DNA from: a virus
DNA: 21,010 nt
Virus record (IMG/VR): IMGVR_UViG_3300010885_015854
Coordinates: 1 to 21,010 of that record
Strand: one strand, 5' to 3'
The translations under genes and the position numbers were made by a program. Each line of letters begins with the position of its first letter. Position 1 is the first letter of the stretch. Of this stretch, positions 2,851 to 20,854 are shown piece by piece. The notes beneath the pieces are model-generated. The model had not been told where the DNA came from, ran no database searches, and worked only from the letters and a program-made list of their open reading frames with translations.

Positions 2851-2858
2851 TGTTTATA
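2851..2858 (-). promoter_or_regulatory. Possible weak late promoter before 49-aa gene
   Basis: The minus strand reads TATAAACA, one base from the late-promoter core TATAAATA. It overlaps the TAA stop of the giant gene and lies 16 bases upstream of the 49-aa ATG. A second A/T-rich stretch just after it (GGTAAATAAAAGA) resembles the sequence following the gp6 promoter motif. One mismatch in an AT-rich genome is weak evidence. Confidence 0.3.
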
Positions 2859-5800
2859 ACCCACGCAAGAACCTTGCGGCCTGCGTATCGGTGTCTTGTA
2901 ATGCTACCCCATCACTAGGAGTGCCATCTCCCAATTGATACCATGTAGTAGCACATTGTCTTACCAAAACAGTAACTTCTACCCCGGCTGGCGGTGCATG
3001 CAACTCTGGGTATGTTGCACCATCAACCACAAATTCAACTGCAACAGGATCAAATTGACTTACAAACCACCGATACTGACTTGTGGCTGTTGTGTCACTG
3101 TATGCATATTGTCTAGTACCGCCAACATAAACTTCAATAGCATCGATTTCGATTGTGCTATCGTCAAATGTTGCAACATCTATGCTGGGTGCATAGAATG
3201 TTGTTGTGCTACCATCCCCAGTGGATGTATCGCTTACCACGTAATTTTGTAAAGATTCTGGCAATAAATTTTCTCTGCTCATGTTGTATACATCAGTTCC
3301 AGCAGTATGAGTTGCAAGAGCAGTTCCTGCTGTGCCTCTCATGAGTCCGCTGACTGTATTATCTACAGTATTTCTTGAACGGTACATTATTCTTTCGCCA
3401 TCAATGGTTAATATCCCAAATATTCCCAATTCTAGATTTGGTTCAGATAATGCATTGGCATTATCTACATATACTATATCATCTATTATTTCAAGATCTT
3501 GAACCAAAATTGTTGTGGTATTTGTGGTAATTCTGTATGTGGCTTGTATTCCACGCATGTCTTGGAATATGCGGAATGCCATAGCGTCTGGTACTGTACT
3601 ACTTGTAAATTCTGTTACCGCTAAAATTTGTGCTGGCCCAATTGTGCCGCTAGACAAAATCAAATAATCCCCAGCTGGATTGGTTCCGTCATCTTCTTGA
3701 TATGCAACGGTAAAATCTTGACCTTCAAAAAGTTGGTACCCATCAAGAGATACCCACAATCTACTGGCCAACACACCGGTTCTTTGCAACCAGAAATTGT
3801 TATTGCTAATGGAAATTCCAGCTGAATAATCATAGGCACCCGGAGCAAAGTTGGAAGAGTCTGGATAACTGTAATTGGTGCTGTCATAATCTTCTGTAAT
3901 TAACACGCCGCTACTGGTTGGACCAATGAATACTAAAGTCAATGGGTATTGTTGTGATGTATCATTCCACGACGTAATACAAAATGCATCATTTAAATTT
4001 ATAGATGTATTAATGATTAATTGATTTGATGACACCCTATAATCAGCTTGTGTACTCATGCTAATTAAAATTCTTGCTCCGCTAACCGGTGGAGAGTTAA
4101 ACACAACTTGCCGACCCGGTGTATTACTACCAGTATAAGGGGTGACAATATAATTTCCAGCAGTTAATCCAAAAGTTTGTGGTTGTAATACATCATCTAT
4201 CCACACTTGAATGTCTGTGGGGGGATAAACATAAGTTTGACTAATAGTAGTTCTTTGCGGTAATCCAAAACTCAAACTTGACCCATCGCCAAACCACTCT
4301 ATGCCAGCCGGTGGTGTTAATTTTAATCCATTGCGTGTGACAATCAAATTGGCTGGATTAGAACCTTGCATGCTATTGGTCAATGTAATTATTTTTGTAG
4401 ATACAGTATTTGAAGTGGCTGTTGTGATCTGAGTTTGTGGGGTACTCCAGCTGTATACTGTTGTGGCTTGGCCTGTACCTGATCCTATGCCAGTTGCTGT
4501 GAAGACAACTCCCACAGTATTACTAGCGGCGCCAATCAAAACAAAATTAGTTGTTCCCAAAGTGGATATAGTGTATTGACGACCAATAATAAAATATCCA
4601 GCATCAATTGTGGATGTACCAAATGCAGTCAACGAGATTCCGTCACCGGCTCCGTATGTGGTCCCAAACTCTACCATACTTTGTGTTGTGGGTACAAATT
4701 CTAACCAATATGCCACATTGGTAATGAGTATTCCAGGAATTGTATCTTGGAGAGCGCGGTAATATGAACCGCTGTTGTTGACGATGTCTAATGTTGTATA
4801 ACTATTGGTTATGTTCCAATCTGTACTAGCAACATACGGACTCCAGGTGGCTCCACTGGTTATTGCCCCATTAACAAAAATTGCCAAACTTATTATTTCA
4901 GCAGAATTTACAGGAATTACTACCGAACTACCCACGTTTTCACCCATGTAGTTATTGCGGTATAACTGACTTCCGCCACCAAGTTCATACACACTGATAT
5001 TAATTAAATTTCCACTAGCCGCAGTGAGCAAAGTTATGGTTTGGTTGTCCCAATCTACAGTATAATCAATATTTAAATTCAAATCCAATTCAGTGGTGAT
5101 ATTGCTAACCAAGACCTGGACTGGATTTTCAACAACTCCTGCCCAGCTGAATGTATCAGTTACAGCAGAATCATATGTGTAACGTATACTGGAAATTTGG
5201 AACCCGTGTCCATCCCTGTTCCAGTCTGCACCCGGTCTAGTGTAAACACGCATATCAAGGGTGTCAAATTCTGATCCGTTGACTAGTTCTTCAGGAGCAT
5301 GTGCTTCGTAAAGGCCAATAAATTTACCACCATCTACATTGATGTCTGAATCAAGTGCGCCCAGTGTTGTGTCTGTAAATTCACTTTGATAAATTGTATC
5401 TATTGAGTCAGGTACCAAGAAATAGTTTCCATATACTTGTACCCCAGGATATGCTATTCCATCTATCAATAAAGGTAAATCAATACCGGGCTGATTAACT
5501 CCTGGCACATAATATCCACGAGTACGGTCAATACCGCTTAGGTCTCGAGCCGGCACAAGTGTCCAATCTTCAAGATTGAATACTGGGCCCACAACTGCGG
5601 TAGAGTCTGTACTAGATGCTTGCCACACACGATCATCATATCGAACCAAAGTACCATCTTGATATGTGCTAGACGAATTCCAATCTTGCACATCAGAGAA
5701 GTATTGGAATCTATCATACTTGATTGTTGTTTTAATACTTCTTACAAGACCTGTGTATCTGCTGAGAGCTCTGCTGTAATTCATCACAGCATACGCACGA

Positions 5801-8800
5801 GCACTGACACCGTTGCCGCCATCAAATGATATCTCTGGTGTTGCTGTATATCCTGATCCTGTATCAATGACCGTAACACTTGTTACCTGGCCAAGACTAT
5901 TAATTTCAGCCACCGCTGTGGCTGCTACAGTAGCATCACCAGTAATCGTAACTATTGGTGCTTCTGTGTAACCACTACCACCATCAATAATTTCAATGCT
6001 GGTTAAATTTAATAGATAGTTGCTGTACCACTGATTATACGGCCAAGTACTCCACACTGCACTTGTGGATGGCAAATCGCTTTCTGTGGTCAATTGTGAA
6101 TTAAATGCATCACTTTGAGCGTATGGTAACAGTATTGGGCTAGTGTATTGTGGAATTTCTAGCGTGGTATTATAGTACGCTGGTAAATCAAAATCAGTAT
6201 TATCTCCAAAAAATTCATCAAAGCCGGTGTACTTTAAGTTAAATTCTCGAACTGACACGTGATAAGGTTTGACCTCTTGAATATAATCACTTACAAATTC
6301 TTGATTGTCACGAATATAGTTTTGATATGGTATCAATTGACGGATTCTGTGATCAACATCAATTAAACCAGTTTTAACTAGCCATTCAGGTGCAGAAAAT
6401 TCACTTAGTACAAAGTTAAACATCAATACCAAGGTTCGATTGCGCTCAATTGCCAACTCGTCAATAAACAATTCTTCGTTAATGGCTTGAATAATTTTTC
6501 TTGTTTCTGTTACAGGTTCTTGGTCAAAATACTGTGCATCAAACACTTCAATATCATAACCAAAACGGCCAAGTTGATAGTCCCACAATTCTGCTGAGAA
6601 CTCAATGGTGCCGTCTTGCAACACAACTCTTTCCCATCCAGTATCAGTCAACAAATAAATTTCATACTTGCCTTGAGAATTAGCGGTAACTTTGACACTG
6701 CTACCGACGGGCACAGTCACGGTTGCTAATGCCGCATAATTAGAAACTTCAGTAATTACCTTGATACTGGAATTGTATCCAGGCCGTACCCAGTTGATAT
6801 AGCTCCAATACGCAGGAGTGTCGTACGTTTGCACTCTTGATAGAATTAACACTCGTTCACCAGGCGTGGTGTCGCTGGCAGTGACTGTGTAAATTGTCCA
6901 TAAACCCCGGTTGTAACTATCAGTTGTCACAAGGTACTTGTATCCTAGATCAACTGCATAGATATCTTGATAACCAAGAATTTCTAAATTAGCAACTTGC
7001 AAATTCCAATTTACAACAGTATTTCCATTGATAATTTCAGATTGTATGGGCTCAGGCTCACTGCTGTTCAACAAGTCAAACATGCGCATTTCAGTTATGG
7101 GCACCTGTGCTAATATAGTGTTAGATCTAACAAGATAATTTTTTAACGCCGCAAATCGATCTACAAACATGGATTGACGCGGGCGAAATTGTACTCCATA
7201 TCTTTCAGCTGGGCTTAGATTTGGATCTGGCACTTTGTTTCCAAACGTGTCAACTCCGCAAAAACTATCTTGAAGTTTGCGATATAAATTAGTACTTAAA
7301 AATCCATCTGCACGATCTTGTGGTATTAGTTCATACTCGACGTGAACATTATTGTTAGTGAGTTCTCGATCAAATTCAATACTGATAATCGTATCACTGG
7401 CTTCTATATAATCTGCGCTGTTGTAAAGAGCAATAGTACTACCATTAATGGGTGCCATGTAGGGTATACCACTAGCCCGAGGATCTGTAATATAAGAAGC
7501 AATGGTACTAATTGGTAATGTTTTGTTAAGATTAGTAGAAGTGACTGTGATATCTCTTACCCAGAAATAATATTCTGTGTTAAATGTACCATCTTTTGTG
7601 AGTCGAGTATTCACAGTGTATGACACTGTGTTGTATGGTGTTCCTTCACCAGCGTAACTGGCTGGAGGCACTGGACTTGATACCCATTGATACACATCAA
7701 CTACACTTCCTGGGAACAGTTGTGCCCATCTGCGACTTGCGTATGTAATGTTATCTTGATTGGGATCGATAAATCTAACGGTGCCAATGTCCCACCATAT
7801 TTCACCCACATGGTCACCAAACCAGGTTGTGCCACGAACGTTGTATGCTCCAATATTGTACGAAGCAGGGTCTATAGTGCTGATGTAATCAAGGTTTTGT
7901 CTGGCGGCGCCAAGAATCTTGCCTTGTAAGGGATTGATAAAATCTAAGAATTCGGTTTTTGCTCCTGTGATTCTATCATACAAGAATACACTATTCAACA
8001 ATCTAATATCCACTGTGGGCTGTTGGATTTTGGTTATAGTCCAAGCCGGTGTTTGTGTAGCATTTTCAAATACAAACACCGCGCCAAAATTTGCATCGCT
8101 GTCGTCTGAATCATTTTTAGGGGCACCGGCCACAAGAACTCCAGAAGTATAACTAACTGAAGTTCCATAAGCATCATAAGGTGCTATGTCTGGGTTGTTT
8201 ACTTGTTGTCCAAACACAAACTTTCCAGGATTAGACAATGTTGTAGTCGAACTTGGCAAATAATCATATGTATAAATTGCTCCACTTTGTACAAATATCG
8301 AGAAGAATATAGTAGTACCAGCATCAAAGAAAGTGGTGCCGTCATCAAATTCAGTTTCAAGATACAACGTACCTTGGGGCGAGCCTACCACAAGATTCAC
8401 AGCAGAATCATCAAGACTCAAACTGCTACCAAAGGCAGCATACTCTATAGGATATGGACTTTCAATTGTTTGTGTCCATGCAAATGTTTCAAACCCTAGA
8501 TCATCAAATGCTGTGCCCACGCTACCTGGTGCCACTTGTACTTTGTTGACCGGTGAGGCTGCCGCAGGATTCTTGACTGATATTGTGAGATACCCCGTGG
8601 TGCTTACAGTGGCCAGTACATTTTGTACACCAGTTTGTGATCCTGCAGGAATTCCATTGATTTGATCTGCTAGACCTTGTACCGTTGGGTTATTAGCCGG
8701 AACTGCAACATCAATATTGTTGACGCGAATTGTATCACCAGCTGTGAGTGTGGGGTTGGCCACTGTGGCAGTAATTGTACCGTAGATACGACTTTGATTT

Positions 8801-11800
8801 ACAAATCTTTCAACCACTCCGCCTTTGAAAACTTGCGCACTGCTCTGTGGTTCTCCCACATACAGGCTACAGTTATAAGAACAAATATCTAATGCTTGTC
8901 CAAAATTACAAAATTCAGCCACTGTGTTTTGATTGATCTCTTGTGCTAAACTGAATTGATTGATTTCAATCTCAATTACATCGCCCACTGATAAATCTTG
9001 GTTGATAGTAATAGTATTGCCGGATACTGTAAAAGAATTTTGGGCATCAATTACACTGTCAGTTTGATTGATTAAAAATACATTATTAACAATCACAGTA
9101 ATTGGTGCTGTAACTGTGCCAAGTACAGTATAAGAATTGCTTGAATCGTCATTCTTGATAAAAGTTTGTACATTGCGATCAAACACATACACCGCACCAG
9201 CTTCGGTTTCGCCATTAACTGTGATATATGGGGTTCCCACAATGAGTTGACGTCCATCAGTTGTACACGAAACTGATTGGCCAAACCTATCACTTGCTCC
9301 TAGCCCAGGTACAGTAATACTATCAACATAGGTAAAATACCCCTTGGAATTAATTACTGCAACGTCACTGACACCTAATGCAGTTACAAAAGTAACAGTG
9401 GTTCCGGCAAAAGTATAATCAATATTGGGACGCCATAATACATCATTTACTTTGACTGAGAATGAATAGATATCAGTGGCTGTGAACAATCCCACTGTTC
9501 TTCCCTGCTGATCAACGCCTTGAGCCAAGTTGAAAGACACGGTAGAGTACGGTACTTGGAAAGTATTCCATCTATCAAATTGAATCAAAAGTCCTGATGT
9601 TGGCGCTGTTGTAAACGTCACTGTGCTAAAATCACCAGCCACAGTATAATCAACACCTAGTGTTTGAACCACGGTGTTCACTATCACTCGAACTTGGTAA
9701 CTGTTATTGATTTGTATTTCATCATCAATAACATAAGTGGTGGTGGCACCGTCACTAATAAAACTTGCAGATTGTTGTTGCCAATCTACAAAACCATATG
9801 CGTGTACATAATTCAATCCAGGGGCGCCAATGTACATCCAACGCTCGTCCAAGCTCATGGCAACTGAATATCCAAATTCTCCAGCGCCGGGTGTTGTGCT
9901 AGTTGTTGTACCAGGTTGTGTAAACAATTGCCATGTTGTGTATGGGTTAGTTCCGGCAACACCCAACGTGGGATCTCGATATATCACCGAAGCGTATCCA
10001 TTGTTGGCTGTGCTGGTTGAACCAAGACTGGCTGATGCGCCAGCCACTGCCCATTCTTGATTGCCAAAATTTATAGCATTACCAAATCCACGAACGCCAG
10101 TAACGTCTAAAGTAAGAACTGCGTCTCCAGTTGAAAGGGGGCTAACCGGTGTGTATTGATCACTGTAACTCTTTAGATAAACATACACGCCACCTTTTTC
10201 AACTCCTGATCCAAATCCATATCTCGGACTGCCTACAAACAAGGCTGTTTTGTTACGTCCCTGAGCCACACTGGCTCCATACTGCTCGTTTGCATCAAGC
10301 AGTACTGGTGACAACGAAATGATACTAGAGAATACTGTGTTCTTTTCTAATACTTCCCATAACCCTTCGCCATTGTTGTCAACCCAGACTCGTGCACCAG
10401 GTAAAATATCATTTGCATAAGGTAAATTAACAACATCACTGGCCTGAGCAACACGCATGGTTTGTAGTGTCAGCCCAGTTCCGACACCGTTAGCAACTGT
10501 GCGGTTGCTAGAAAATGCAAATGCAATGTTTACTGTGGTCAAATTTGGTACCGATAACACTTGATAAACACCATTGACTTCAACGTCAAAGAATTTAATA
10601 ATCAATTTATCGCTGGCAACTAGTCCATGGTTACTGCTGAAAATTACTCGACTGGTACCATTTAAGTTATCACAAACGTGTTGTATCTGTCCGGGGACTG
10701 CTTGTGCTCGATATATGTTCCAGTCATAGTCATTGATTTTGGCTACCCAAATACTGGTGCCAACATTAATGGCATCAATGTTGGCATTTAAACTGGCATT
10801 GTTGGTAATGTCAAATACTGTAATGTCAGCATCATTTAAATTTACATAACCAGCTGTGGGAAGTCCAACATCTGTAGGAAGTTCTGTAGTGGTTGGGAGA
10901 ATTTCTGTGCTGGTGAGTTTGTAACTCTGTCTCCATACATCACTTAAAAATATTGTTTGATCAGCTTGGCTAACTTGTTGTGGTACCACAACTTGAACCA
11001 CACTGGGATTTGAGCTCAACAAGGCACGATTTAATCTTAATTCAAAGAAACTACGATTAGCATTGGCGCCATACACAGCACGTTGAACTGCCCAGTTTTC
11101 ATAAATGTCATAGTCAGCGGCTTCCTTGCCAAGGTTAGCAGCTTTGAATAATTCAGCACTGAGTATGGTTCCCTTGGTGTCAAGAAATTGTCGGTACACA
11201 TTGACTTGACTAACATCATCAAGATTTAATGCGGCCATGTACTGTCTGGGTTTAAATCCAATTAGTCCATAACTTAGTAAATCGTTGTCAAGTTCAATAT
11301 TAGCGGCATTGATATTGTAACTATTGGCCAATTGATTGGCCTTGTTGGCTATATTTGGTAATAACCCAAGTTCAATTTGTGTATAATCGCTCTGGACCCA
11401 ATCATCAAAACTGAATTTAACGCTGGGTTGTACAATTTTTAATGCAGACCAATACACATTTTTATACTTGACAATTTCACCTTTACTATATGTGCGTAAT
11501 CCCGTCCACTCTTGTACATTGTCTTGATTTAAAATAAATCCTGGAGTATCAACTGTGCCGTTCCAATTGGCTGTGGTCACCGCCACAAGGTTCAGACGAT
11601 TTTGTCTAGCACCGGTTGTGGGGTCATATATTAAATCGCCAAACACACTTTGATTGCTTAAAACCATCATGTGTTCAAAACTAGTAAATCTTAAATCTAT
11701 AAAACTGATATTTTGTGTGGTCAATGGTTGTATTACAAATGTATTATCAGTTCTTACAATATTCAATGTGCGAGTTGGTAATTCTCTTGAATTTTGATCT

Positions 11801-14800
11801 AGCAATAGATTTTCTGTAGTTTCTGTAGTTATGTTGTCAACCACAGCACCAGCACGAGTCACAGTAAGACCACCGGCCAGGGGATTCAAATTAATAATAG
11901 CGTTTGTATCCCAACCTTGTTGACTCCAATACAAAAATTCATTAACCATTCTTGGCCAATCCAATGTGTAACCGTTGGCGCGATCAGTAAAAGTTAATCC
12001 TTGAGTTTCTAATAATTTTCCATAGCTCAATAAAAAGTCACTTACAGCAGTTTCGTTGCTGAATATAAAACCATAAGGCACCTGTACTACTGTATCGGTA
12101 TAAAATGTTGGTACTCTAACTGTGATTCCGCCGGTGCTGTATTCTTGTAATTTTCCTACTGCTTGGCTTTGCAATATTTCAAAATAAACCTGAGTGGTTC
12201 CATACCCAAATACTGCATATCCACCTGTGACTTTTTGCACAGCCACCGCACTATATCTGATGCTTTCAAATGGTTGGTTTTTGTACAATACAATATCATA
12301 ACTCTCATCTGGAATCATTAGTGTGTTGTTGGTGCTATTGGGACTGGATTTTTCAGTAAACAATTTAATATATTGTTTGTCTGAATAACTGGCCATACGA
12401 TAACACAATCTAACATCTAAATTTTGTAATTCGGCTGTGAGTTTATCAGTGCTGTTGATACCACTCTGACGATTAAAGTCTACAATCCAATCAATATAAC
12501 TGGCCTTGCTGACGCCGTTACCATAAACTTCAACGTCATTAGCATTTAATCTGTAACGTTCATTGTAAAGATACTGCGCATAATCTAAATTGTATTTGTA
12601 TAAATCTCTATCAACAAACAATGCAAAAAACTTTGCAGGTCGAGTAACAGCCAACACATGCATTACCGAGAATGGGTATGCACTAGAATTCCACCACGAC
12701 GCTTCAACAGGACCGCCATCACCAATTGCCCAACTTTTACTGAATGCGCTGGCAAGATTATAATTTGGAGGTAGTGCGCCAACCACGCTGTTCAACGGGC
12801 TTAGTAATTCGCCTTCTGATCCTGTGGGAATAACTGATGTTAATCCGGATCTGGCGTATTCAGGTAGATAGTATGGTGCTACGGGATCTGCTACATAGCC
12901 AGCTTCTAGGTCATCCCATAAAACCAAGTTGTCAGCGGTATAAGGGGCCACACCGTAGGTGCTTTCCCACCAATCAGGTTTGACAAAAAATCCCAACATT
13001 TCCCAGGGCGTATAACTGGGCTGTTGTGTATCATAATAATATCTATAAATTCCGCGCCAGGCACCTAATAAATTCTGTTGGTCAAGACGGCTTTTTGAAT
13101 TACTATAATTCCATGTAAATTCATTTGTGGCTGAATAATCTTGTTGTTTGTAGTCTAGTTTGTTCCAACCACAATAACTTAAAAAGTCTTCAGCAAAAAT
13201 ATTGTTGATTTCGTCAAACGTATATCCAGTTTCTCGGAATTCACCAGGTAACACATCCGTCAATGTCATTGGTACTGGATTACCATCTAGTTTTAAATTG
13301 CTGTAAATTCTAGTTTCAAATTCTAATAGCACATCATCACGTATGTCTCCAAACAGCGGAGTTAAACTTCCATCATGACCTTGAATAAAGTCTTGAATAC
13401 CTTTACTGACAACTTGAGTAACTACCGCAGGTCTCCATGCAGGATACAACCCCATTTTGGTTGGAGTGTTAGGTGCAAAATTTCCATAAGTGGCATTGTA
13501 TTCATTGATTGTGACTTTGTCACTGATGGTAAGATCAACTAAGATAGTGAGTGTGGGGGCATCCAATGATACTATATAATCTCTTTGTCTTTCTAACAAT
13601 ACATCATTTAGATACACACACAAGCCAAGATAATTGGCCGATGTAAAATTATATGTTTGTACTGTATCAAATGTGGGTTGTGTGGTATAACCCACTGTGT
13701 ATGTGTTGGTAGCAAATGTTGAGCCAGTGGGCAACATATCACTCCAATAAAATGGTTGTGTGTCTACTTTGCCTAGTGTGATATCTTGTATAGCAGTATC
13801 AAGAATTTCTGCTGTTGTTTTAAAAGCAATATTTTCTTGAGTCAATACAGCGTCAAGCATTCTTGCCTTGTATTTGATGTATTCCCGGCTGTTGTATTGT
13901 AAACTAGCAAAAATATTGTAGTCCGGAGATCTCATGAAATATCCAGCTAGAGTTAGCGGGCTACTTTGTTGCAGTATTGTCAATCCATAAGGAACAATAT
14001 TACCAAGATCTCGAGTGTTGTTTGCACCGTTGATCCTGCCGGACAATGTGATTAAATTCTGACAGATACTTTCGTAATGTGTGCGAATTGTTCCTAGAGT
14101 AAATGCTGGACTGTTATTGTTGAGTGGGTTATTTTGTAAATTATTTGGAACCTGATAGAATCCTACTTTGCTGGTTTGGTCACTCAACACCATGACTTCT
14201 ATAATATCAGTTGGTACGTATGTGTTGACAAGAGTTATCGTGGTACTGTCAGTTGTGGTCAAGTATGTGTAGAGACCGGGGTCAAGGAATACGCTACCTA
14301 CATATATTTTAATTACAGGAACTGCAATAGAAGATTGCGTGTTAACTGCAATGTCTAATTTAAGAGTGGCCCCAGTATACTCAAATTTAAACTGCTGATA
14401 GATTTGTTGTTCAACAATGGCATTTTGCCAACCTAGCAATTTTTCATAGACGACTCGGTTGCCATATTCTCTAATAGAGCCAGAGCTGATATCGCTTGTT
14501 GTGCTTACATTATCTGTTGTGTATGTAAATGTATCAACATATAAATTGTTATCAAACACAATATCACCCACGTTGTTGATATTCAAATATTGCAGTGGCA
14601 ATTGCAAAACAGGATCAAGTATGGTAGTATCTCCAACTGCATAACTGAATAATTTTGATCCTATAAAGTTACTGGATTGATACTTTGCTTGATTACTAAA
14701 ACTTATTCCATCAATATCATATATGTTAAACAATGGTGCTTGTTGTACTGCGGTTTTTTGCTGTGCTTCTGTCCAGGTAAGGCCATCAAACCAATAGGTA

Positions 14801-16953
14801 ATACCTGCACTGGTATCTCCATCAATACAAACAGTACATTGATCAATTTCTACTACACCATCAGAAGCCAGTGTTAAATTAATAATTGGTTGTGAAATCA
14901 AGGGACTGACAGTATCAGGAGTAATAAAACTCACTACATAGATTTTGTCTCTGACATTGAAATCTGCATCGGCTGCAAATATAACTCTTGTGCCTTCAAC
15001 AAATGTATAGCCATCTACAGTATAGCTTGTAGATCCTTCAACATTGCTAAATGCATCAGACTGAGAAAAATCTATTATGTCCACTGGGTCCTTGCCCTGT
15101 GTGCCCATATTAAACAATCGCAGTCCTGGACGGAATTGTATAATTGGACGTTTTGCACGATAGTTGTTGTCAAGAACAATTGGAGTATTGTTATATTCTG
15201 CTGTGGCATTGATTACATCTATATGGAACCAACGATTACTCCTGGTCCAGGCATTTAGATCTTTGCCGGCTCTGCTGATTGTTAGATAATCTAATTTGGC
15301 AGGGTCAACTACAACTGTTGTTGTATCTGCATCTTCCGCATAAGGTTCGTAAATTTTAAAATTGTTGGTGGATAGTAATTCTATTGCTGATCCAACCCCA
15401 CTAACATAGTATTCTCGATCGCTGATAGCAATCGCATTCATTGTTCCAGTACCAGATTGTAATTCAAAAACTGTTCCGTACAGTGTTTCACTTATGGTAA
15501 ATTTTTGATAGTCTCCGGAAATTGACCTAACATAATATGTTTGTCCTGCTTCAATTCCACCCAATGTGGGTGCCAGGAACACAACTTCTTGTCCCACATA
15601 CAAATCAACAGCAGATGATGATGTGATATAATTGGTACCAATTTCGGTTTCGGTACATTCAAAACTTGTAGTACCAGATTTGTAACTAACGGGTAACACA
15701 TCACCGGTAAATTTTACTTTTAGTCCGTTTGTGAATGCAACTCCATTAGGGCTGGTATAATTTTTTTGTCCAAGTATTTGATCAATATCTAATATATTAG
15801 AATCTACAGAATCTATCAATTTGATAGTTCCAAATATTTCTGGGTCTGTGCCATCTTGGTAATACAAAGTGTCTTGAACCGCAGTCAACAACGGAATTTG
15901 TGTTATCGCATTTGCTGACGTTTTATACCACTGAGTATTACTGTAAGTGTTGCCATAAAGAATGGTAAATTTTTCCAACGGATTGATTGTGGCTATTAGA
16001 TTAACTTGAAGATATTCAACATCATCAACTGTGTTATAGGTAATTTGATATTTGTCAGTATATCCGGCCTGATCGATGAATACTAATGTGCGAGTGTTGA
16101 GATTGGTGGTACCGTCAATGCCACCATATTGTAAGATAAAATCGATTAGTGGCTGGCCGTTGATATCATCATAGGTCAATGTTGTGGCTAAGTCTATTGT
16201 GCCAATACTGGTCAAGTTATAATAAAAACTTTGTGCAGTTTTTTGTGGAACATTGAATATTATTGTTCCAAGATTTTCACCATTGTTTAGTACCCCGTAC
16301 ACATCTCTACTGCTTATGTTGGGTGCATATGGTAACACACCGTTTATGCCCGGCGCAGATTGTATCCAAAAATTACTATTTTGATCCACTTGGAATGTGT
16401 AATTTCCTCCGCGTACTAATTCAATTACAGGATCAGTTCCATATATGTTTGAAAAAGTATATGATGCACCGGTATCAGTTACTACAAAATTATCGCTTGT
16501 GGCGATTTCAGTTGCTGATACTGTTACCACATCTGGACCAGCAGGTAACCAAAAATACTGACTAAAATTTACAAACGTATCAAAATCAACAAACGGATCC
16601 CAAGTATAATAATCACTTGAATACAACAAATCTGGGCGACTGCTTGTGCCACCTTGAAATCCAACAGCATCGTTTAGGCCAGGATAGGTAATTGTGTTTT
16701 TTATTTTGCCGGTACCGGGTACCAAACTAACCACACCCGGCTCAAGTTGATAATTGGCACGTGTGGCCGTGGGCTCAATCACATACTTGTCATTTGGATT
16801 AACCCCGGGTCCAACTGTGCGACCAATAAATCCTTGTGTCTTTTTAAAACTGGGCTCTTGGACCAATTGATCTAAAGTGGCTGCAAGAAACTGTTTGTTT
16901 GCATCAGTTTGAAATATTTCTGGTAAAAAATCTACACTACGAACTTTGGCCAT
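2854..16953 (-). CDS. Giant multidomain virion structural protein (4,699 aa), probable baseplate/tail periphery
   Basis: A single uninterrupted frame of 4,699 codons starting MAKVRSVDFLPEIFQTD. Modules in order: conserved N-terminal block (1-150, with GFIGRTVGPGVNPND); cupredoxin-like beta domain (about 158-257); tryptophan-rich block with WRGIYRYYYDT, PWEMLGF and KPDWWE (about 1187-1438); W..Y..GE.V.Y carbohydrate-binding-like motif (about 1813-1854); seven-bladed FG-GAP propeller with inserts (about 2217-2978); a block with WAQLFPGS and YYFWV just after it; EVKPYHVSVREF and FGDNTDFDLPAYY (about 3555-3592); twin GSGY repeats (about 3651-3713); two further binding-like motifs; a GTTNF-type beta module (about 4116-4169); and a C-terminal block with FRIFQDMRG and TDTQAARFLRGL. 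Several of these blocks are, from memory, recurrent in structural proteins of marine T4-like phages. There are no enzyme motifs and no membrane segments. The start overlaps the gp6 stop as TAATG with GGAG seven bases upstream. The structural role is well supported by context; the exact place in the virion is inference. Confidence 0.85.
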   Translation of the reverse strand: MAKVRSVDFLPEIFQTDANKQFLAATLDQLVQEPSFKKTQGFIGRTVGPGVNPNDKYVIEPTATRANYQLEPGVVSLVPGTGKIKNTITYPGLNDAVGFQGGTSSRPDLLYSSDYYTWDPFVDFDTFVNFSQYFWLPAGPDVVTVSATEIATSDNFVVTDTGASYTFSNIYGTDPVIELVRGGNYTFQVDQNSNFWIQSAPGINGVLPYAPNISSRDVYGVLNNGENLGTIIFNVPQKTAQSFYYNLTSIGTIDLATTLTYDDINGQPLIDFILQYGGIDGTTNLNTRTLVFIDQAGYTDKYQITYNTVDDVEYLQVNLIATINPLEKFTILYGNTYSNTQWYKTSANAITQIPLLTAVQDTLYYQDGTDPEIFGTIKLIDSVDSNILDIDQILGQKNYTSPNGVAFTNGLKVKFTGDVLPVSYKSGTTSFECTETEIGTNYITSSSAVDLYVGQEVVFLAPTLGGIEAGQTYYVRSISGDYQKFTISETLYGTVFELQSGTGTMNAIAISDREYYVSGVGSAIELLSTNNFKIYEPYAEDADTTTVVVDPAKLDYLTISRAGKDLNAWTRSNRWFHIDVINATAEYNNTPIVLDNNYRAKRPIIQFRPGLRLFNMGTQGKDPVDIIDFSQSDAFSNVEGSTSYTVDGYTFVEGTRVIFAADADFNVRDKIYVVSFITPDTVSPLISQPIINLTLASDGVVEIDQCTVCIDGDTSAGITYWFDGLTWTEAQQKTAVQQAPLFNIYDIDGISFSNQAKYQSSNFIGSKLFSYAVGDTTILDPVLQLPLQYLNINNVGDIVFDNNLYVDTFTYTTDNVSTTSDISSGSIREYGNRVVYEKLLGWQNAIVEQQIYQQFKFEYTGATLKLDIAVNTQSSIAVPVIKIYVGSVFLDPGLYTYLTTTDSTTITLVNTYVPTDIIEVMVLSDQTSKVGFYQVPNNLQNNPLNNNSPAFTLGTIRTHYESICQNLITLSGRINGANNTRDLGNIVPYGLTILQQSSPLTLAGYFMRSPDYNIFASLQYNSREYIKYKARMLDAVLTQENIAFKTTAEILDTAIQDITLGKVDTQPFYWSDMLPTGSTFATNTYTVGYTTQPTFDTVQTYNFTSANYLGLCVYLNDVLLERQRDYIVSLDAPTLTILVDLTISDKVTINEYNATYGNFAPNTPTKMGLYPAWRPAVVTQVVSKGIQDFIQGHDGSLTPLFGDIRDDVLLEFETRIYSNLKLDGNPVPMTLTDVLPGEFRETGYTFDEINNIFAEDFLSYCGWNKLDYKQQDYSATNEFTWNYSNSKSRLDQQNLLGAWRGIYRYYYDTQQPSYTPWEMLGFFVKPDWWESTYGVAPYTADNLVLWDDLEAGYVADPVAPYYLPEYARSGLTSVIPTGSEGELLSPLNSVVGALPPNYNLASAFSKSWAIGDGGPVEASWWNSSAYPFSVMHVLAVTRPAKFFALFVDRDLYKYNLDYAQYLYNERYRLNANDVEVYGNGVSKASYIDWIVDFNRQSGINSTDKLTAELQNLDVRLCYRMASYSDKQYIKLFTEKSSPNSTNNTLMIPDESYDIVLYKNQPFESIRYSAVAVQKVTGGYAVFGYGTTQVYFEILQSQAVGKLQEYSTGGITVRVPTFYTDTVVQVPYGFIFSNETAVSDFLLSYGKLLETQGLTFTDRANGYTLDWPRMVNEFLYWSQQGWDTNAIINLNPLAGGLTVTRAGAVVDNITTETTENLLLDQNSRELPTRTLNIVRTDNTFVIQPLTTQNISFIDLRFTSFEHMMVLSNQSVFGDLIYDPTTGARQNRLNLVAVTTANWNGTVDTPGFILNQDNVQEWTGLRTYSKGEIVKYKNVYWSALKIVQPSVKFSFDDWVQSDYTQIELGLLPNIANKANQLANSYNINAANIELDNDLLSYGLIGFKPRQYMAALNLDDVSQVNVYRQFLDTKGTILSAELFKAANLGKEAADYDIYENWAVQRAVYGANANRSFFELRLNRALLSSNPSVVQVVVPQQVSQADQTIFLSDVWRQSYKLTSTEILPTTTELPTDVGLPTAGYVNLNDADITVFDITNNASLNANIDAINVGTSIWVAKINDYDWNIYRAQAVPGQIQHVCDNLNGTSRVIFSSNHGLVASDKLIIKFFDVEVNGVYQVLSVPNLTTVNIAFAFSSNRTVANGVGTGLTLQTMRVAQASDVVNLPYANDILPGARVWVDNNGEGLWEVLEKNTVFSSIISLSPVLLDANEQYGASVAQGRNKTALFVGSPRYGFGSGVEKGGVYVYLKSYSDQYTPVSPLSTGDAVLTLDVTGVRGFGNAINFGNQEWAVAGASASLGSTSTANNGYASVIYRDPTLGVAGTNPYTTWQLFTQPGTTTSTTPGAGEFGYSVAMSLDERWMYIGAPGLNYVHAYGFVDWQQQSASFISDGATTTYVIDDEIQINNSYQVRVIVNTVVQTLGVDYTVAGDFSTVTFTTAPTSGLLIQFDRWNTFQVPYSTVSFNLAQGVDQQGRTVGLFTATDIYSFSVKVNDVLWRPNIDYTFAGTTVTFVTALGVSDVAVINSKGYFTYVDSITVPGLGASDRFGQSVSCTTDGRQLIVGTPYITVNGETEAGAVYVFDRNVQTFIKNDDSSNSYTVLGTVTAPITVIVNNVFLINQTDSVIDAQNSFTVSGNTITINQDLSVGDVIEIEINQFSLAQEINQNTVAEFCNFGQALDICSYNCSLYVGEPQSSAQVFKGGVVERFVNQSRIYGTITATVANPTLTAGDTIRVNNIDVAVPANNPTVQGLADQINGIPAGSQTGVQNVLATVSTTGYLTISVKNPAAASPVNKVQVAPGSVGTAFDDLGFETFAWTQTIESPYPIEYAAFGSSLSLDDSAVNLVVGSPQGTLYLETEFDDGTTFFDAGTTIFFSIFVQSGAIYTYDYLPSSTTTLSNPGKFVFGQQVNNPDIAPYDAYGTSVSYTSGVLVAGAPKNDSDDSDANFGAVFVFENATQTPAWTITKIQQPTVDIRLLNSVFLYDRITGAKTEFLDFINPLQGKILGAARQNLDYISTIDPASYNIGAYNVRGTTWFGDHVGEIWWDIGTVRFIDPNQDNITYASRRWAQLFPGSVVDVYQWVSSPVPPASYAGEGTPYNTVSYTVNTRLTKDGTFNTEYYFWVRDITVTSTNLNKTLPISTIASYITDPRASGIPYMAPINGSTIALYNSADYIEASDTIISIEFDRELTNNNVHVEYELIPQDRADGFLSTNLYRKLQDSFCGVDTFGNKVPDPNLSPAERYGVQFRPRQSMFVDRFAALKNYLVRSNTILAQVPITEMRMFDLLNSSEPEPIQSEIINGNTVVNWNLQVANLEILGYQDIYAVDLGYKYLVTTDSYNRGLWTIYTVTASDTTPGERVLILSRVQTYDTPAYWSYINWVRPGYNSSIKVITEVSNYAALATVTVPVGSSVKVTANSQGKYEIYLLTDTGWERVVLQDGTIEFSAELWDYQLGRFGYDIEVFDAQYFDQEPVTETRKIIQAINEELFIDELAIERNRTLVLMFNFVLSEFSAPEWLVKTGLIDVDHRIRQLIPYQNYIRDNQEFVSDYIQEVKPYHVSVREFNLKYTGFDEFFGDNTDFDLPAYYNTTLEIPQYTSPILLPYAQSDAFNSQLTTESDLPSTSAVWSTWPYNQWYSNYLLNLTSIEIIDGGSGYTEAPIVTITGDATVAATAVAEINSLGQVTSVTVIDTGSGYTATPEISFDGGNGVSARAYAVMNYSRALSRYTGLVRSIKTTIKYDRFQYFSDVQDWNSSSTYQDGTLVRYDDRVWQASSTDSTAVVGPVFNLEDWTLVPARDLSGIDRTRGYYVPGVNQPGIDLPLLIDGIAYPGVQVYGNYFLVPDSIDTIYQSEFTDTTLGALDSDINVDGGKFIGLYEAHAPEELVNGSEFDTLDMRVYTRPGADWNRDGHGFQISSIRYTYDSAVTDTFSWAGVVENPVQVLVSNITTELDLNLNIDYTVDWDNQTITLLTAASGNLINISVYELGGGSQLYRNNYMGENVGSSVVIPVNSAEIISLAIFVNGAITSGATWSPYVASTDWNITNSYTTLDIVNNSGSYYRALQDTIPGILITNVAYWLEFVPTTQSMVEFGTTYGAGDGISLTAFGTSTIDAGYFIIGRQYTISTLGTTNFVLIGAASNTVGVVFTATGIGSGTGQATTVYSWSTPQTQITTATSNTVSTKIITLTNSMQGSNPANLIVTRNGLKLTPPAGIEWFGDGSSLSFGLPQRTTISQTYVYPPTDIQVWIDDVLQPQTFGLTAGNYIVTPYTGSNTPGRQVVFNSPPVSGARILISMSTQADYRVSSNQLIINTSINLNDAFCITSWNDTSQQYPLTLVFIGPTSSGVLITEDYDSTNYSYPDSSNFAPGAYDYSAGISISNNNFWLQRTGVLASRLWVSLDGYQLFEGQDFTVAYQEDDGTNPAGDYLILSSGTIGPAQILAVTEFTSSTVPDAMAFRIFQDMRGIQATYRITTNTTTILVQDLEIIDDIVYVDNANALSEPNLELGIFGILTIDGERIMYRSRNTVDNTVSGLMRGTAGTALATHTAGTDVYNMSRENLLPESLQNYVVSDTSTGDGSTTTFYAPSIDVATFDDSTIEIDAIEVYVGGTRQYAYSDTTATSQYRWFVSQFDPVAVEFVVDGATYPELHAPPAGVEVTVLVRQCATTWYQLGDGTPSDGVALQDTDTQAARFLRGL
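4447..4608 (-). other. GTTNF/IGA-type beta module in giant protein (residues ~4116-4169)
   Basis: The segment AGYFIIGRQYTISTLGTTNF continues with VLIGAASNTVGVVFTATG and GSGTGQAT. The pattern YTI..LGTT.F..IGA..NTVG..FTATG.G.GTG.A is a compact module that I recall as recurring, often in several copies, in aquatic phage structural proteins. It interrupts an otherwise continuous region, so it may be a mobile domain. Confidence 0.5.
4690..4830 (-). other. Carbohydrate-binding-like motif 3 in giant protein (residues ~4042-4088)
   Basis: The segment reads STDWNITNSYTTLDIVNNSG, then SYYRALQDTIPG and AYWLEFVP. It keeps the W...SY....IV....YYRAL....PG....W pattern but lacks the usual G-x-x-V turn, so it is the weakest of the three copies. 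Confidence 0.35.
5554..5693 (-). other. Carbohydrate-binding-like motif 2 in giant protein (residues ~3754-3800)
   Basis: The segment reads VQDWNSSSTYQDGTLVRYDD, then RVWQASSTDSTAVVGP, and ends in LEDWTLVP. The W...STY..G..V.Y....W.A......GP....W spacing is the closest of the three copies to the CBM5/12 pattern. Confidence 0.45.
5815..6002 (-). repeat. Twin GSGY repeat in giant protein (residues ~3651-3713)
   Basis: Two units in tandem: IIDGGSGYTEAPIVTITGD and VIDTGSGYTATPEISFDGGN, joined by an Ala-rich strand and LGQVTSVT. This VxxxGSGYTxxPxVxI pattern is a known recurrent beta repeat in large phage and bacterial surface proteins. It probably forms an elongated beta segment. Confidence 0.65.
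8020..10305 (-). other. Seven-bladed FG-GAP (integrin-type) beta-propeller with inserted domains (residues ~2217-2978)
   Basis: Seven units can be counted, each with an aromatic-Gly start, a VG.P-like strand and usually a G.VYV-like strand. Blade 1: QYGASVAQG, LFVGSPRYG, GGVYVY. Blade 2: GFGNAINFG, WAVAGASAS, GYASVIY. Blade 3: EFGYSVAMS, MYIGAPGLN. Blade 4: RFGQSVSCT, LIVGTPYIT, AGAVYVFDR. Blade 5: NFGQALDIC, LYVGEPQSS, GGVVERF. Blade 6: AFGSSLSLD, LVVGSPQGT, SGAIYTYD. Blade 7: AYGTSVSYT, LVAGAPKND, FGAVFVFEN. These are the hallmarks of FG-GAP repeats. Large inserts separate blades 3/4 (two beta modules, about 9300-9770), 4/5 (about 8935-9150) and 5/6 (about 8455-8775). The classic DxDxDG calcium loop is not clearly present. 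Confidence 0.7.
8455..8775 (-). other. Flagellin-IN-like module inserted between propeller blades 5 and 6
   Basis: The encoded segment runs AGDTIRVNNIDVAVPANNPT, then QGLADQINGIPAG, QNVLATVSTTGYLTISVKNP, and FDDLGFETF. The order (a G-D-T-I-x-V-N-N strand, a short helix with L...IN, a V.A.....G.L.I strand pair, and a final LGF) resembles the IN motif of flagellin or hook-associated proteins and similar modules in phage tail proteins. It interrupts the propeller. Confidence 0.45.
11392..11516 (-). other. Carbohydrate-binding-like motif 1 in giant protein (residues ~1813-1854)
   Basis: The segment VQEWTGLRTYSKGEIVKYKN continues with VYWSALKIVQPSV and ends in DDWVQ. The pattern W....Y..G..V.Y...YW.A.......P....W resembles the short chitin-binding (CBM5/12) fold. 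Related segments occur at 5554-5693 and 4690-4830. Confidence 0.4.
12640..13395 (-). other. Conserved tryptophan-rich block of giant protein (residues ~1187-1438)
   Basis: Reading the minus strand, this stretch encodes GHDGSLTPLFGDIRDDVLLE, ETGYTFDEINN, NEFTWNYSNS, GAWRGIYRYYYDT, PWEMLGFFVKPDWWES, YTADNLVLWDDLEAG and IGDGGPVEASWWNSSAYPF. It is dense in Trp, Tyr and Gly turns and has the look of a strongly constrained folded domain. From memory, this block recurs in large structural proteins of aquatic T4-like phages. It has no known enzymatic signature. Confidence 0.5.
16185..16480 (-). other. Cupredoxin-like beta domain in giant protein (residues ~158-257)
   Basis: The encoded segment contains DPVIELVRGGNYTFQV, then FWIQSAPG, GVLNNGENLGTIIFNVP and SFYYN. 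This order (strand, RG..Y.F, then G..I.F.VP and a YYN/YYC-type end) matches a cupredoxin-like beta sandwich seen in many phage and marine microbial proteins. The His, Cys and Met residues that would bind copper are absent, so a structural rather than redox role is more likely. Confidence 0.45.
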
Positions 16954-19900
16954 TAGATAACTCCACTACCGGGAGCAGTACGCAAGTTGGTACTGGTCAA
17001 TGCTTCAATCACTTCAATGTTATCAATGGTAGCACCATTAACAAATATTTCACTAGGTGCTGAACGTATTTCATACAGGTCGCCAAAATACTTTTGTGAA
17101 TTTAATGGTACTAATACTACCGAACTAATAATAGTGCCCAATGTTCTGTGTAGATATGCCGCAAGTTCTGAGAAATAAAACGTGTCGCCAAAGTTCCACT
17201 TGTCAATTGAAAAGTAGTCATTCATTGCAGCCACCACACTACTTTTAATTTCGCTGGTACTAGCCGTGGATCCCGATGCACGAATTACTTTTATTGTGGC
17301 CCGAAGACTTTGTGCGGCCTTGGCGCCAAATAATGGTTTAAATATAACAGAATTTAAAATAATGTTATCACTTATCATTTTGTAATCTTGCAATCCTTGA
17401 TACTCAGTACTTAATTCATCAATAGTAGGCACCGCAGGTTCAGTCACTGTATCAGTTGTATCGCGAATCCAATTTTGATATGAAGTATAATAGCTCAAAG
17501 TTACCACATATAAATCGATAATATTGGTCGTGCCAGGATCAATTCGATTTGTTAACGGACTGTTGTGTCTATACTGATAATACAAACTTTGTCTTCCAGT
17601 TCTTGCAATCCATTCGGCACTGACGTCAATCAAGGTGCGCACACCGGTTGTGCTCACAGACAACTGATAGAACATTTGATCGCTGTAGGCATAGAATACT
17701 TGTCCCGGAACCCATTCATTTATGGCAGCCACTATGTCATCATAGTTGGCATAGTCACTGGTAACAATACCAGGCTCAACCAAGAGATATCTTTGCAAGT
17801 TGTCAAAGTCCACAGTCTTTTGTAAGTACACATATTTTTGTGTGGAGTTGGTGTCGGGTGCAACAATTTCACTAAAGAAATCAGGGTTATCTGGCACACC
17901 GTCATTGTCGCTGTCACGATATCCCACTAACACCTGGAAGTCATCCACATAGCCATCGCTTTCAACAGGTTGGCCGGTAATTGTCATGATAATGTCGCCA
18001 GGTAAATGATCAGTAGAATCTGGTTGAGTATTCACTGCCAAGCAATTGATATAATCTTTAATCACCGTACCTGTGCGACTATCGTACACTTGTGCGCCAT
18101 CATAGAAAAAGAAACGTGTTTGCAACACACTACCAAAGTAGTAAGCAAGACTACGGAATGTGACTGTGTAGTTTTGATTTTGTACCACAAACTGTACCAT
18201 CCAACTGGCATCTAAATTTGTGCCCGATGTGTTGCCTGCATATTGTTGACTCCAGGTAGCATCTGCCGCAAGGTTTGTACTGGTAATCAAGTACCAAGAG
18301 TAAGGTGTGCCAGTAATGTCACCGTTGTTGTCATATCCAATACCAAAATTACGATTGAGTATGATTTGTTCAGTTATGGCCAGCTCTAGATCTTGTGGTA
18401 AGTCAGTAACAAACAATGGAATAATAGTGTCAACTATGGCGCCAGTGGGCACAAAGTTGTTGAGCGAAATTGGTCCTGCACCCGATGAGAGATTACCAAG
18501 TCCGTTATTGTAACCAGTGCCAATAATTTCTAGTGGGCTGGCCCAAATTTCTAATTTCTGATCTGCACTGGTAGGTGTACCTTGTTGTAGTTTGTTATTT
18601 TTGTCAAAGTAGTAGCCAGTGGGCGGTACAAATTTAATTAAACTTCCCACTGCTACATATTTGAAATCTGTAGTAGTTGTGAATCCTACTGGTATTGGCG
18701 CCCCATTTGGCCATGTACTAGAATAGATTGTGTTTCTAAAATATCCTGTAGTTTCGTTGGCCAGAGTAGTACTTTGGACCCAGTTGGCGCCAGGTACCCA
18801 AGTGGTACCACCATATGTGGGTAATGTACTTTCGGTTACCCTGGGAAAATTAGCATAATAAAATTGTTTTGTTGTGGTTTCAGCTAGTTTTGGTTGAAAC
18901 TGATTTGTAATGGCTTCTGCAATTTCGTTACGATTGGTCCAGGAAAATAAGATTGTGGGTAGTATGTTTTGTTCCCATAAACCACCATCACTGCCAAAAC
19001 TATTGGTACTAGAATACTTGCCGGTGTTGTCTACTAAATCAAGATATCGACTGGTACCAATGCTTGCACGATTCAACGCCTTACTCTTCACAATTGAATT
19101 GTATTGTGTATAAGGGAAAAGGTTATAGTCTTCGCCATTGACCATGCGATTTTGTGTGTAATATCTTGCAGGGGCACGTTGTTTAATACCGTCAATACTT
19201 TCACGTGCCTGACTATTGCTAACAGGTTGAGTAATGCCACACGTGAATGTTATGGTTTCTAAATTGCCAGCTCTACTGATATAACTGATAGGAATTGTTA
19301 CTGCCTGCATCTCTTCAGGATTGATAATATACTGCAATCCATTACTTGCGCGAACATAAGCACGGAATGTGCCTACTGGGATTTCTGAAAATACACCATC
19401 ACCAAATATCATGGTAATCTGATCATTAGTTCTTGATGTCACTGAGTATATGGGTCTTGTGTCCGTGGCCACTTGTTCGCCACCTGCGGCATAAATGTTT
19501 TCAGTATAGGCCCACTCACGATTTACGTTACCCACATTATCAAGTTGAAACAACCAACGATCTTGATTGTTAATGCCTTCAATGTTGATGTTTACTGTGC
19601 GATTGCTCACTCGTTCACCAAGGTTAAAATCTTGATTCTGCAATACACCTTGTTTAAACATAAAGAAATAGCCAGTATTGGCTGATTGGAATCCTAGGCT
19701 GTCGTTACGGAACACCACATTAAAAGGTACGTTGGCTCTTGGTGAAGGCTCATACAGATAATCTTTGCCTACCGAAGTTGATGTCATGGCCTCAAATGGC
19801 ATATTGACGCCATCCACTGTGGCTGTGTAAGGAACTACTGGCAAGTATCCAGGAACTAAATTAATAGCATATTCATCAGTGCGTATGCCTAAAATTGTTT

Positions 19901-20429
19901 GTCGATTGCCGGGGCGTCCCACTCGTTGTGTGTCTACCAAGCTGGCATTGATAATTGTGGTAAACTGCTCTTGCCAATCTGGATTGGTTTGGTCAGCCCA
20001 GTCCACAGTGACGTTTGATAAATTAACGCCTTGATAATCCACAACATTTTCTGTTGTGGTTACTGAAAATACTTTTAACAAGCCTTGTGCGGCAATGTTG
20101 CGTTTGGCTGTGTAACTTACTAAGTTAGCAAGCCGTACTACGCTGTCACGGCGCTCGGCCGTGTCCATGTAGTTTTCACGTGTGTTTAAGTCTGTACGGA
20201 AGGCAAGTGCTTGTCCCATGAACGCAATAACATCCAAGAGAGCAACATATTCACTTGATTCAATGTAGTCATTGAATGTTTCTGGATAGTACAAGCGCAG
20301 ATAATCAACAAAACTCTTGCGTAAGGTTTCAAAATCATAACTTTGAAAATCTGCTTCGCGATAGGTTTGATAGATCTGTTTCCAATCCTGAACACCAAAT
20401 ATCGCCGTTTGTCTTGTGGTTTTTGCCAT
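16953..20429 (-). CDS. gp6: Baseplate wedge protein, T4 gp6-like (1,158 aa, enlarged)
   Basis: In T4, gp6 dimers form the continuous ring joining neighbouring baseplate wedges. Here the N-terminus (residues 1-120: VQDWKQIYQTYREADFQSYD, then YLRLYYPETFNDYIESSEYV and LAFRTDLNTRENYMDTAERR) is characteristic of the family. Residues 339-354 hold the FGDGVFSEIPVGT motif shared by gp6/gpJ-type wedge proteins. The C-terminus (SLRATIKVIRASG, then SIDKWNFGDTFYFSELAAYL) also fits. T4 gp6 is about 660 residues, so the middle (roughly 470-1010) holds an extra 500 residues. That middle includes an acidic DSDNDGVPDNPD loop at residues 839-850 that resembles a thrombospondin-type-3 calcium loop. The start is the ATG at 20429 with GAGG about nine bases upstream and a late promoter at 20450-20457. 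The gene ends in a TAATG overlap with the giant gene. It follows gp25, the usual wedge-gene order. Confidence 0.9.
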   Translation of the reverse strand: MAKTTRQTAIFGVQDWKQIYQTYREADFQSYDFETLRKSFVDYLRLYYPETFNDYIESSEYVALLDVIAFMGQALAFRTDLNTRENYMDTAERRDSVVRLANLVSYTAKRNIAAQGLLKVFSVTTTENVVDYQGVNLSNVTVDWADQTNPDWQEQFTTIINASLVDTQRVGRPGNRQTILGIRTDEYAINLVPGYLPVVPYTATVDGVNMPFEAMTSTSVGKDYLYEPSPRANVPFNVVFRNDSLGFQSANTGYFFMFKQGVLQNQDFNLGERVSNRTVNINIEGINNQDRWLFQLDNVGNVNREWAYTENIYAAGGEQVATDTRPIYSVTSRTNDQITMIFGDGVFSEIPVGTFRAYVRASNGLQYIINPEEMQAVTIPISYISRAGNLETITFTCGITQPVSNSQARESIDGIKQRAPARYYTQNRMVNGEDYNLFPYTQYNSIVKSKALNRASIGTSRYLDLVDNTGKYSSTNSFGSDGGLWEQNILPTILFSWTNRNEIAEAITNQFQPKLAETTTKQFYYANFPRVTESTLPTYGGTTWVPGANWVQSTTLANETTGYFRNTIYSSTWPNGAPIPVGFTTTTDFKYVAVGSLIKFVPPTGYYFDKNNKLQQGTPTSADQKLEIWASPLEIIGTGYNNGLGNLSSGAGPISLNNFVPTGAIVDTIIPLFVTDLPQDLELAITEQIILNRNFGIGYDNNGDITGTPYSWYLITSTNLAADATWSQQYAGNTSGTNLDASWMVQFVVQNQNYTVTFRSLAYYFGSVLQTRFFFYDGAQVYDSRTGTVIKDYINCLAVNTQPDSTDHLPGDIIMTITGQPVESDGYVDDFQVLVGYRDSDNDGVPDNPDFFSEIVAPDTNSTQKYVYLQKTVDFDNLQRYLLVEPGIVTSDYANYDDIVAAINEWVPGQVFYAYSDQMFYQLSVSTTGVRTLIDVSAEWIARTGRQSLYYQYRHNSPLTNRIDPGTTNIIDLYVVTLSYYTSYQNWIRDTTDTVTEPAVPTIDELSTEYQGLQDYKMISDNIILNSVIFKPLFGAKAAQSLRATIKVIRASGSTASTSEIKSSVVAAMNDYFSIDKWNFGDTFYFSELAAYLHRTLGTIISSVVLVPLNSQKYFGDLYEIRSAPSEIFVNGATIDNIEVIEALTSTNLRTAPGSGVI
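16961..16964 (-). promoter_or_regulatory. Ribosome binding site of giant structural gene
   Basis: GGAG on the minus strand lies seven bases before the ATG at 16953-16951, inside the last codons of the gp6 gene. Combined with the TAATG overlap, it indicates that translation of the giant gene is coupled to gp6. Confidence 0.6.
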
Positions 20430-20476: not shown

Positions 20477-20854
20477 TTATACATAGGAGGCAGAACGTTG
20501 TTGTAAATCAAAGAAAATACTTAATCTTTCCGCATTAGTACTAGGCACAACTGCTAGTTCAACTTGAATTAATATACCATTTTCTTGGGGGAAAGATTGT
20601 ACATCACTTATGATAATTCTAGGATCTCCACCAGCCACACGTTGTACTTCTCGAATGATTGCGTTTTGTAAATCTTCAAGTTGTTGCTCAAACAACAAGT
20701 CCCACAGCACTGTGCCATACGCTGGACGTCCGGGCAATTGCCCTTGACGAATATTAAATGCGTTAAGCAGGTCGCGTTTGATCAAAGCAAAACCCGTGAG
20801 TGTGAACTTTTTGTATTGATTTTGTGTGTTAAAGCCGATGAATGTTTGTGCCAT
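20477..20854 (-). CDS. gp25: Baseplate wedge protein, T4 gp25-like (125 aa)
   Basis: A member of the GPW/gp25 family, which in T4-like and P2-like phages lies at the inner edge of the baseplate wedge, next to the sheath and gp6. The 125-residue length is close to T4 gp25 (132). The family pattern is visible: a strand followed by ALIKRDLLNAFNI (residues 23-35), the conserved turn GQLPGRPAYGTVLWDLLFE (38-56), a helix with LQNAIIREVQRV (62-73), then DPRIIISDVQSF and the strand GILIQVELAVV. The family has a lysozyme-like name in databases, but catalysis is not expected here. The start is the ATG at 20854. No Shine-Dalgarno sequence is visible upstream, where the minus strand reads AACCTCCCATAAATACCAT. 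It lies 17 bases after the stop of the preceding partial gene and 47 bases before gp6. Confidence 0.9.
   Translation of the reverse strand: MAQTFIGFNTQNQYKKFTLTGFALIKRDLLNAFNIRQGQLPGRPAYGTVLWDLLFEQQLEDLQNAIIREVQRVAGGDPRIIISDVQSFPQENGILIQVELAVVPSTNAERLSIFFDLQQRSASYV

Follow-up and report, generated by a model that had tools for sequence, protein, structure and literature searches.

An integrin-type seven-bladed propeller predicted in a giant baseplate protein of large phages, with small modules in three of its blades

Described FG-GAP propellers and the giant baseplate protein

The N-terminal propeller of the integrin alpha chains consists of seven FG-GAP blades of four strands each, and its connector from blade 2 to blade 3 carries the inserted alpha-I domain. 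A propeller of this type is predicted here inside a giant phage protein of 4699 amino acids, which is encoded on the minus strand of the IMG/VR virus record IMGVR_UViG_3300010885_015854 (positions 1 to 21,010; this whole stretch of 21,010 nucleotides is called the window). The predicted propeller shares seven four-stranded blades and the presence of inserted domains with the integrins. The differences concern the A-B loops, which have no DxDxDG motif in the window, the site of the inserts, which occupy the C-D hairpins of blades 3, 4, and 5 instead of the blade 2-3 connector, and the context: the window propeller is viral and lies within a baseplate protein.

The positional counterpart of the giant protein is gp7 of phage T4, which likewise follows gp25 and gp6. 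T4 gp7 has about 1000 amino acids compared with 4699 in the window giant, and no sequence similarity between them was detected; the term "gp7 position" is therefore a statement of gene order only. The homologs of the giant in cultured phages are the phrog_10938 proteins PA5oct gp355, CBB gp236, Atu_ph07 gp180, and SCTP-2 140 (SCTP-2 is less annotated). They share the scaffold and the gp25-gp6-giant gene order, but no propeller is present in any of them. The protein gp355 has been recorded in PA5oct virions by mass spectrometry.

FG-GAP units or a similar predicted fold are also found in the stand-alone phage proteins S-TIM5 F417_gp054, LR797314 UFOVP1367_22, and Phosso XYS97267, and in the hemagglutinin-named protein A0A2L0UZX4 of Atu_ph07. 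In contrast to the window propeller, these are separate proteins outside the wedge giant; one of them comes from an uncultured phage, where its gene is part of the tail module. The cyanophage S-TIM5 protein (L413:13290-14513, 407 amino acids) matches PF14312 with an E-value of 1.3e-79 and is annotated just as a virion structural protein and with packaging. The repeat-rich giant of Sinorhizobium phage Phosso (L411, 5977-12531) contains some twenty FG-GAP units in the portion examined, which would suffice for several consecutive propellers. When 50,697 phage records were searched for the propeller, the window sequence had no match, and relatives had weak matches to stand-alone FG-GAP proteins only.

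The fold itself is known, and phage FG-GAP annotations exist already. Within titles and abstracts, with few subscription journals covered, nothing joined FG-GAP, phage, and baseplate, and FG-GAP combined with bacteriophage or phage tail led to no report on such a protein. The loading of modules in three neighbouring C-D hairpins is not described for FG-GAP propellers in the literature searchable in this way. The window would place an integrin-type adhesion fold in the infection machine of widespread, mostly uncultured large phages (some contigs exceed 200-340 kb), with modules added to three adjacent blades while the blade count stays unchanged.

Seven FG-GAP units and their predicted fold

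The sequence-only reading had located a seven-bladed propeller at positions 8020-10305, which correspond to residues 2217-2978 of the 4699-residue minus-strand open reading frame. Residues 2223-2967 hold seven FG-GAP units, each of which starts with aromatic-Gly, continues with a strand whose end is VGAP or a related form, and includes a GAVYVY-type strand. The units, with the profiles that recognise them, are as follows.

10165..10287, minus strand: FG-GAP unit 1, residues 2223-2263 (family and independent profiles)
9973..10089, minus strand: FG-GAP unit 2, residues 2289-2327, degenerate, AGAS replaces GAP (family profile only)
9775..9879, minus strand: FG-GAP unit 3, residues 2359-2393 (family and independent profiles)
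9172..9288, minus strand: FG-GAP unit 4, residues 2556-2594, the strongest unit (family and independent profiles)
8794..8907, minus strand: FG-GAP unit 5, residues 2683-2720 (family profile; weak score otherwise)
8254..8436, minus strand: FG-GAP unit 6, residues 2840-2900, with the conserved extension FDDGTTFFDAGTT between strands B and C (family and independent profiles)
8053..8172, minus strand: FG-GAP unit 7, residues 2928-2967 (family and independent profiles)

A strict form of the motif occurs five times in this region and nowhere else in the giant, against a mean of 0.0035 in 2000 shuffles. The Pfam family FG-GAP_2 (PF14312) matches the whole protein with an E-value of 2.9e-12 and the region with 1.5e-14 (54.3 bits, cut-off 23), and it is found in all 15 close relatives (15/15). 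With Pfam alone, just two stretches pass individually. A blade profile built solely from distant uninterrupted relatives detects five window units (E 6e-11 to 4e-4) and no unit in the remainder of the giant; the family profile detects all seven. The presence of seven FG-GAP units in the giant is confirmed, and the independent profile also reaches the five repeats which the sequence-only reading had asked of a profile search.

Scans of IMG/VR yielded just over 400 giants, 342 of which have both flanks of the site; 280 are non-redundant. FG-GAP units are present at the site in 267 of the 280. The commonest count is seven (155/280), followed by six (55). Counts below seven are probably often due to weak units missed by the profile, and the few counts of eight arise from a match inside an extra insert. 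Shuffled or reversed control sites gave zero or one unit in nearly all cases. The spacing of 88 residues between units 6 and 7 is almost invariant among the relatives. In two of them, L032 and L038, units 1 and 2 are separated by a long insert (spacing 129-133 versus about 65). No cultured carrier of the propeller was found among the relatives scanned, and as to the host, the genome scan gave just scattered contigs in metagenome bins of unrelated taxa.

Of the 155 relatives with seven units, 29 are free of long inserts in all blades. In the alignment of the uninterrupted relatives all seven units are in register, and FG-GAP_2 is found in 38 of 38. The profile of nine such relatives, compared with PDB sequences, matched integrin alpha chains exclusively (best E 7.2e-14), and the profile of the 38 likewise matched integrin alpha chains only; the profile of the window's close relatives alone gave no match. 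The AlphaFold2 model of the uninterrupted relative L315 (490 amino acids, nine alignment rows) reached a predicted local distance difference test score (pLDDT) of 79.2 and a predicted template modelling score (pTM) of 0.82. Its 28 strands read as seven times four. In the Foldseek comparison of this model with the PDB, the top 32 matches are all integrin alpha chains, with E-values from 1e-14 and a best TM-score of about 0.6; seven-bladed WD40 discs, among them Sec12, EED, and WDR91, rank after the integrins. Unit counts, integrin-only PDB matches, and the L315 model together support the initial assignment to an integrin-type seven-bladed propeller.

The repeats might instead be loosely similar beta hairpins that form no closed disc. 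This would agree with the low confidence of the window's own model and with the two stretches that pass by Pfam alone. It is nevertheless very improbable in view of the unit counts in the family, the PDB matches restricted to integrins, the L315 model with its Foldseek result, and the independent blade profile.

Insertion of the propeller in the scaffold and of modules in the blades

The giant belongs to a group of baseplate genes in the following arrangement.

20477..20854, minus strand: baseplate wedge gp25-like protein, 125 amino acids (PF04965, E 1.1e-6)
16953..20429, minus strand: baseplate wedge gp6-like protein, 1158 amino acids (phrog_10646, E 8.7e-275; phrog_219, E 1.9e-23)
2854..16953, minus strand: giant baseplate protein of the phrog_10938 type in the gp7 position, 4699 amino acids (open reading frame and phrog_10938 match)

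The phrog_10938 profile (virion structural protein) matches the giant over its scaffold with an E-value of 1.4e-282. On the minus strand the gp25-like gene is followed by the gp6-like gene and then by the giant, which stands in the slot of T4 gp7. The gp25-gp6-gp7 gene order is matched by the window and also by PA5oct and CBB. The earlier assignment to a tail protein can be made more specific: the giant is a baseplate protein.

The propeller is bordered by two scaffold strands.

10339..10389, minus strand: residues 2189-2205, VWVDNNGEGLWEVLEKN, the scaffold strand that precedes the propeller (corresponding to the first hairpin half of L326, L274, and L082)
7975..8046, minus strand: residues 2970-2993, AWTITKIQQPTVDIRLLNSVFLYD, the scaffold strand that follows the propeller and is probably blade 7 strand D (kept in relatives with an empty site)

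In the empty-site relatives, the strand after the propeller reads TWEIYRNAEPKVD in L326 and GWTAVRRQPRVMD in L274; it corresponds to strand 459-464 of the L315 model. The bare site in both L326 and L274 is a short hairpin, which reads WTVYRWNIGTWEIYR in L326. For PA5oct, Atu_ph07, SCTP-2, and CBB, the alignment of the giant with the window extends as far as residue 1990-2115 and resumes at 2950-2992, and no FG-GAP units were found in these four proteins. A LamG-like domain at the SCTP-2 site was suspected by eye; it was unconfirmed by Pfam and is not claimed. Repeats like GGSGYTxAPxVTITGG occupy much of the Atu_ph07 site. The relative L082 runs from window residue 2223 to 2970 through a short linker and is 44% identical to the window in a long stretch before the site. 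This shows that the propeller is a domain insertion in a scaffold beta-hairpin of the giant.

On a tree of the scaffold only (FastTree), two changes are needed to account for where the propeller is present. One is a deep split with every cultured relative on the empty side, and the other is a nested, secondary loss in L082, beside L092. Because the root of the tree was not inferred, the deep change could be a gain or a loss. The relatives give a natural series: a hairpin with no propeller, a plain propeller, a propeller carrying modules, and a propeller lost again. In this series, the role of the domain is testable by comparison and deletion.

Long stretches of 147, 74, and 97 amino acids follow units 3, 4, and 5.

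9334..9774, minus strand: blade 3 insert, in the C-D hairpin, residues 2394-2540, a tandem pair of beta modules, its end leads into strand D (folds alone)
8950..9171, minus strand: blade 4 insert, in the C-D hairpin, residues 2595-2668, one beta module
8503..8793, minus strand: blade 5 insert, in the C-D hairpin, residues 2721-2817, a flagellin-IN-like alpha/beta module

Every blade of the L315 model has a tight hairpin of strands C and D, with turns of 2 to 7 residues. The window stretches behind units 4 and 5 align exactly into this C-D hairpin of L315. MAFFT misaligned blades 2-3 of the window with L315; the position of the blade 3 insert is therefore based on motif reading and on the displaced strand D, which is found at residues 2536-2554, just ahead of unit 4, with a weak profile score. 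The sequence-only reading had placed the inserts between blades 3/4, 4/5, and 5/6, in blade-connecting loops. It was right about beta modules in three places. The modules are located inside blades 3, 4, and 5, where they replace the C-D hairpin of the outer strands, and not in the D-A connectors. The inserts would still emerge from one face, as the sequence-only reading had suggested: by general propeller geometry, all C-D turns lie on the same face; they share it with the A-B turns, and it is opposite the ligand-binding face of the integrins.

Among related sequences, long inserts are found in 74, 73, and 75% at blades 3, 4, and 5, versus 6, 7, and 1% elsewhere. On the scaffold tree the inserts of these blades need 9, 2, and 5 changes, respectively. 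The domain Flagellin_IN (PF07196) was detected in the blade 5 insert of 2 of 15 relatives (best E 0.0016); it gave no match in the window itself. The inserts resemble common phage beta modules, being CBM_X2-like with E-values of 0.05-0.08 and, in one relative, T7-tail-like with 0.011. This likeness, and the 29 seven-unit relatives free of inserts, would be expected if the disc were a passive spacer or bulk domain and the inserts neutral passengers, recruited from promiscuous phage beta modules. Such a spacer is improbable: the inserts repeatedly occupy these three hairpins and rarely any other site, and the blade count holds at seven across deep divergence.

In six relatives (L007, L009, L010, L011, L013, and L014), blade 4 has an additional insert of about 85 amino acids, which separates its strands B and C and marks a fourth point of insertion. 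The apparent eighth unit in L007, L009, L010, and L014 lies within an extra blade 4 insert and is most likely spurious. A recurrent module, YTIxSxGTTDFxxIGA (26 matches, in L098 and others), is mostly found at the propeller site, in many cases behind blade 3, and occasionally in other parts of the giants; it is possibly a mobile phage beta module.

Proposed role and neighbouring genes

We propose, with a rough probability of 0.6, that the integrin-type seven-bladed propeller of the giant baseplate protein is used as an accessory binding part with modules in three of its blades. The propeller would be a domain inserted in a beta-hairpin of a giant standing at the T4 gp7 position. In the window lineage, small beta modules would be plugged into the C-D hairpins of the adjacent blades 3, 4, and 5, from which they would project side by side on the face opposite the integrin ligand-binding face. 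The disc may be placed at the edge of the baseplate and act there as the accessory binding part. The binding would most likely be a reversible contact with the host surface, tuned by the inserted modules.

Host-surface adhesion or fibre docking is the function we infer. Identity to the relatives is about 54% in the propeller, versus 78% in gp6 and 71% in the scaffold; the propeller evolves faster than both. A binding role is supported because the propeller is losable and faster-evolving and because stand-alone FG-GAP proteins exist in phages. Among the functional options, an accessory adhesion part at the baseplate edge is the most likely, with slightly more than half of the weight, fibre docking comes second, and a passive spacer last.

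In the docking alternative, the same disc and its inserts would hold tail fibres, whiskers, or the neighbouring wedge within the virion, without contact to the host. The disc belongs to a wedge protein encoded beside gp6 and upstream of a fibre gene, its blades and inserts are moderately conserved, and propellers are generally known to serve commonly as protein-docking discs. However, the whole sister group and L082 keep the scaffold without the disc, so no obligatory partner is implied, and we regard docking as rather unlikely. The loss in L082 and the absence in the sister group speak likewise against an obligatory role in assembly.

Several observations weigh against the accessory binding part proposed above. 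The AlphaFold2 model of the window propeller, built with 15 close relatives, is of low confidence (pLDDT 39.8, about 22 for the blades), although its inserted modules are modelled with moderate to good confidence. Because of this, the closed disc of the window is deduced by homology and would be carried over from relatives whose scaffold identity is about 30%. In the window, blades 2 and 5 are weak, and units 2 and 5 need the family profile. Two scaffold profiles detected no sequence similarity to the solved gp7 of T4. The propeller sequence is not hypervariable, unlike many receptor tips, and no ligand and no sugar-binding site were seen for the propeller. None of the window's A-B loops contains the integrin calcium motif DxDxDG (family: 7 of 247); ligand binding by an integrin-like metal chemistry is therefore not suggested.

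A broader scenario may tentatively be drawn: a large phage group might have captured an integrin-type propeller once, in a hairpin of its giant wedge protein, and used it as an exchangeable sensor or adhesion head, the specificity of which would be tuned by the modules in three C-D hairpins.

Further features were observed in other parts of the giant and downstream of it. Residues 3649-3739 of the giant form a GGSGYTxAPxVTITGG stretch, which matches phrog_1922 and phrog_460. A weak CBM_5_12-like match at residues 3758-3779 (E 0.002) is below the cut-off; comparable weak matches are found in the giants of PA5oct (residue 1595), Atu_ph07 (1272), and SCTP-2 (1385). The fibre-like gene at 2-2056 (minus strand, 685 amino acids) is open at the window end and has 69-nucleotide direct repeats at 1013-1150. 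The C-terminal stretch of its product weakly resembles a tail fibre family, and its coverage in relatives is less full than that of the giant. The gene at 2083-2688 (minus strand), between the giant and the fibre-like gene, encodes a 201-amino-acid protein of phrog_11259 (unknown function), which is the best conserved of the window genes (86% in relatives).

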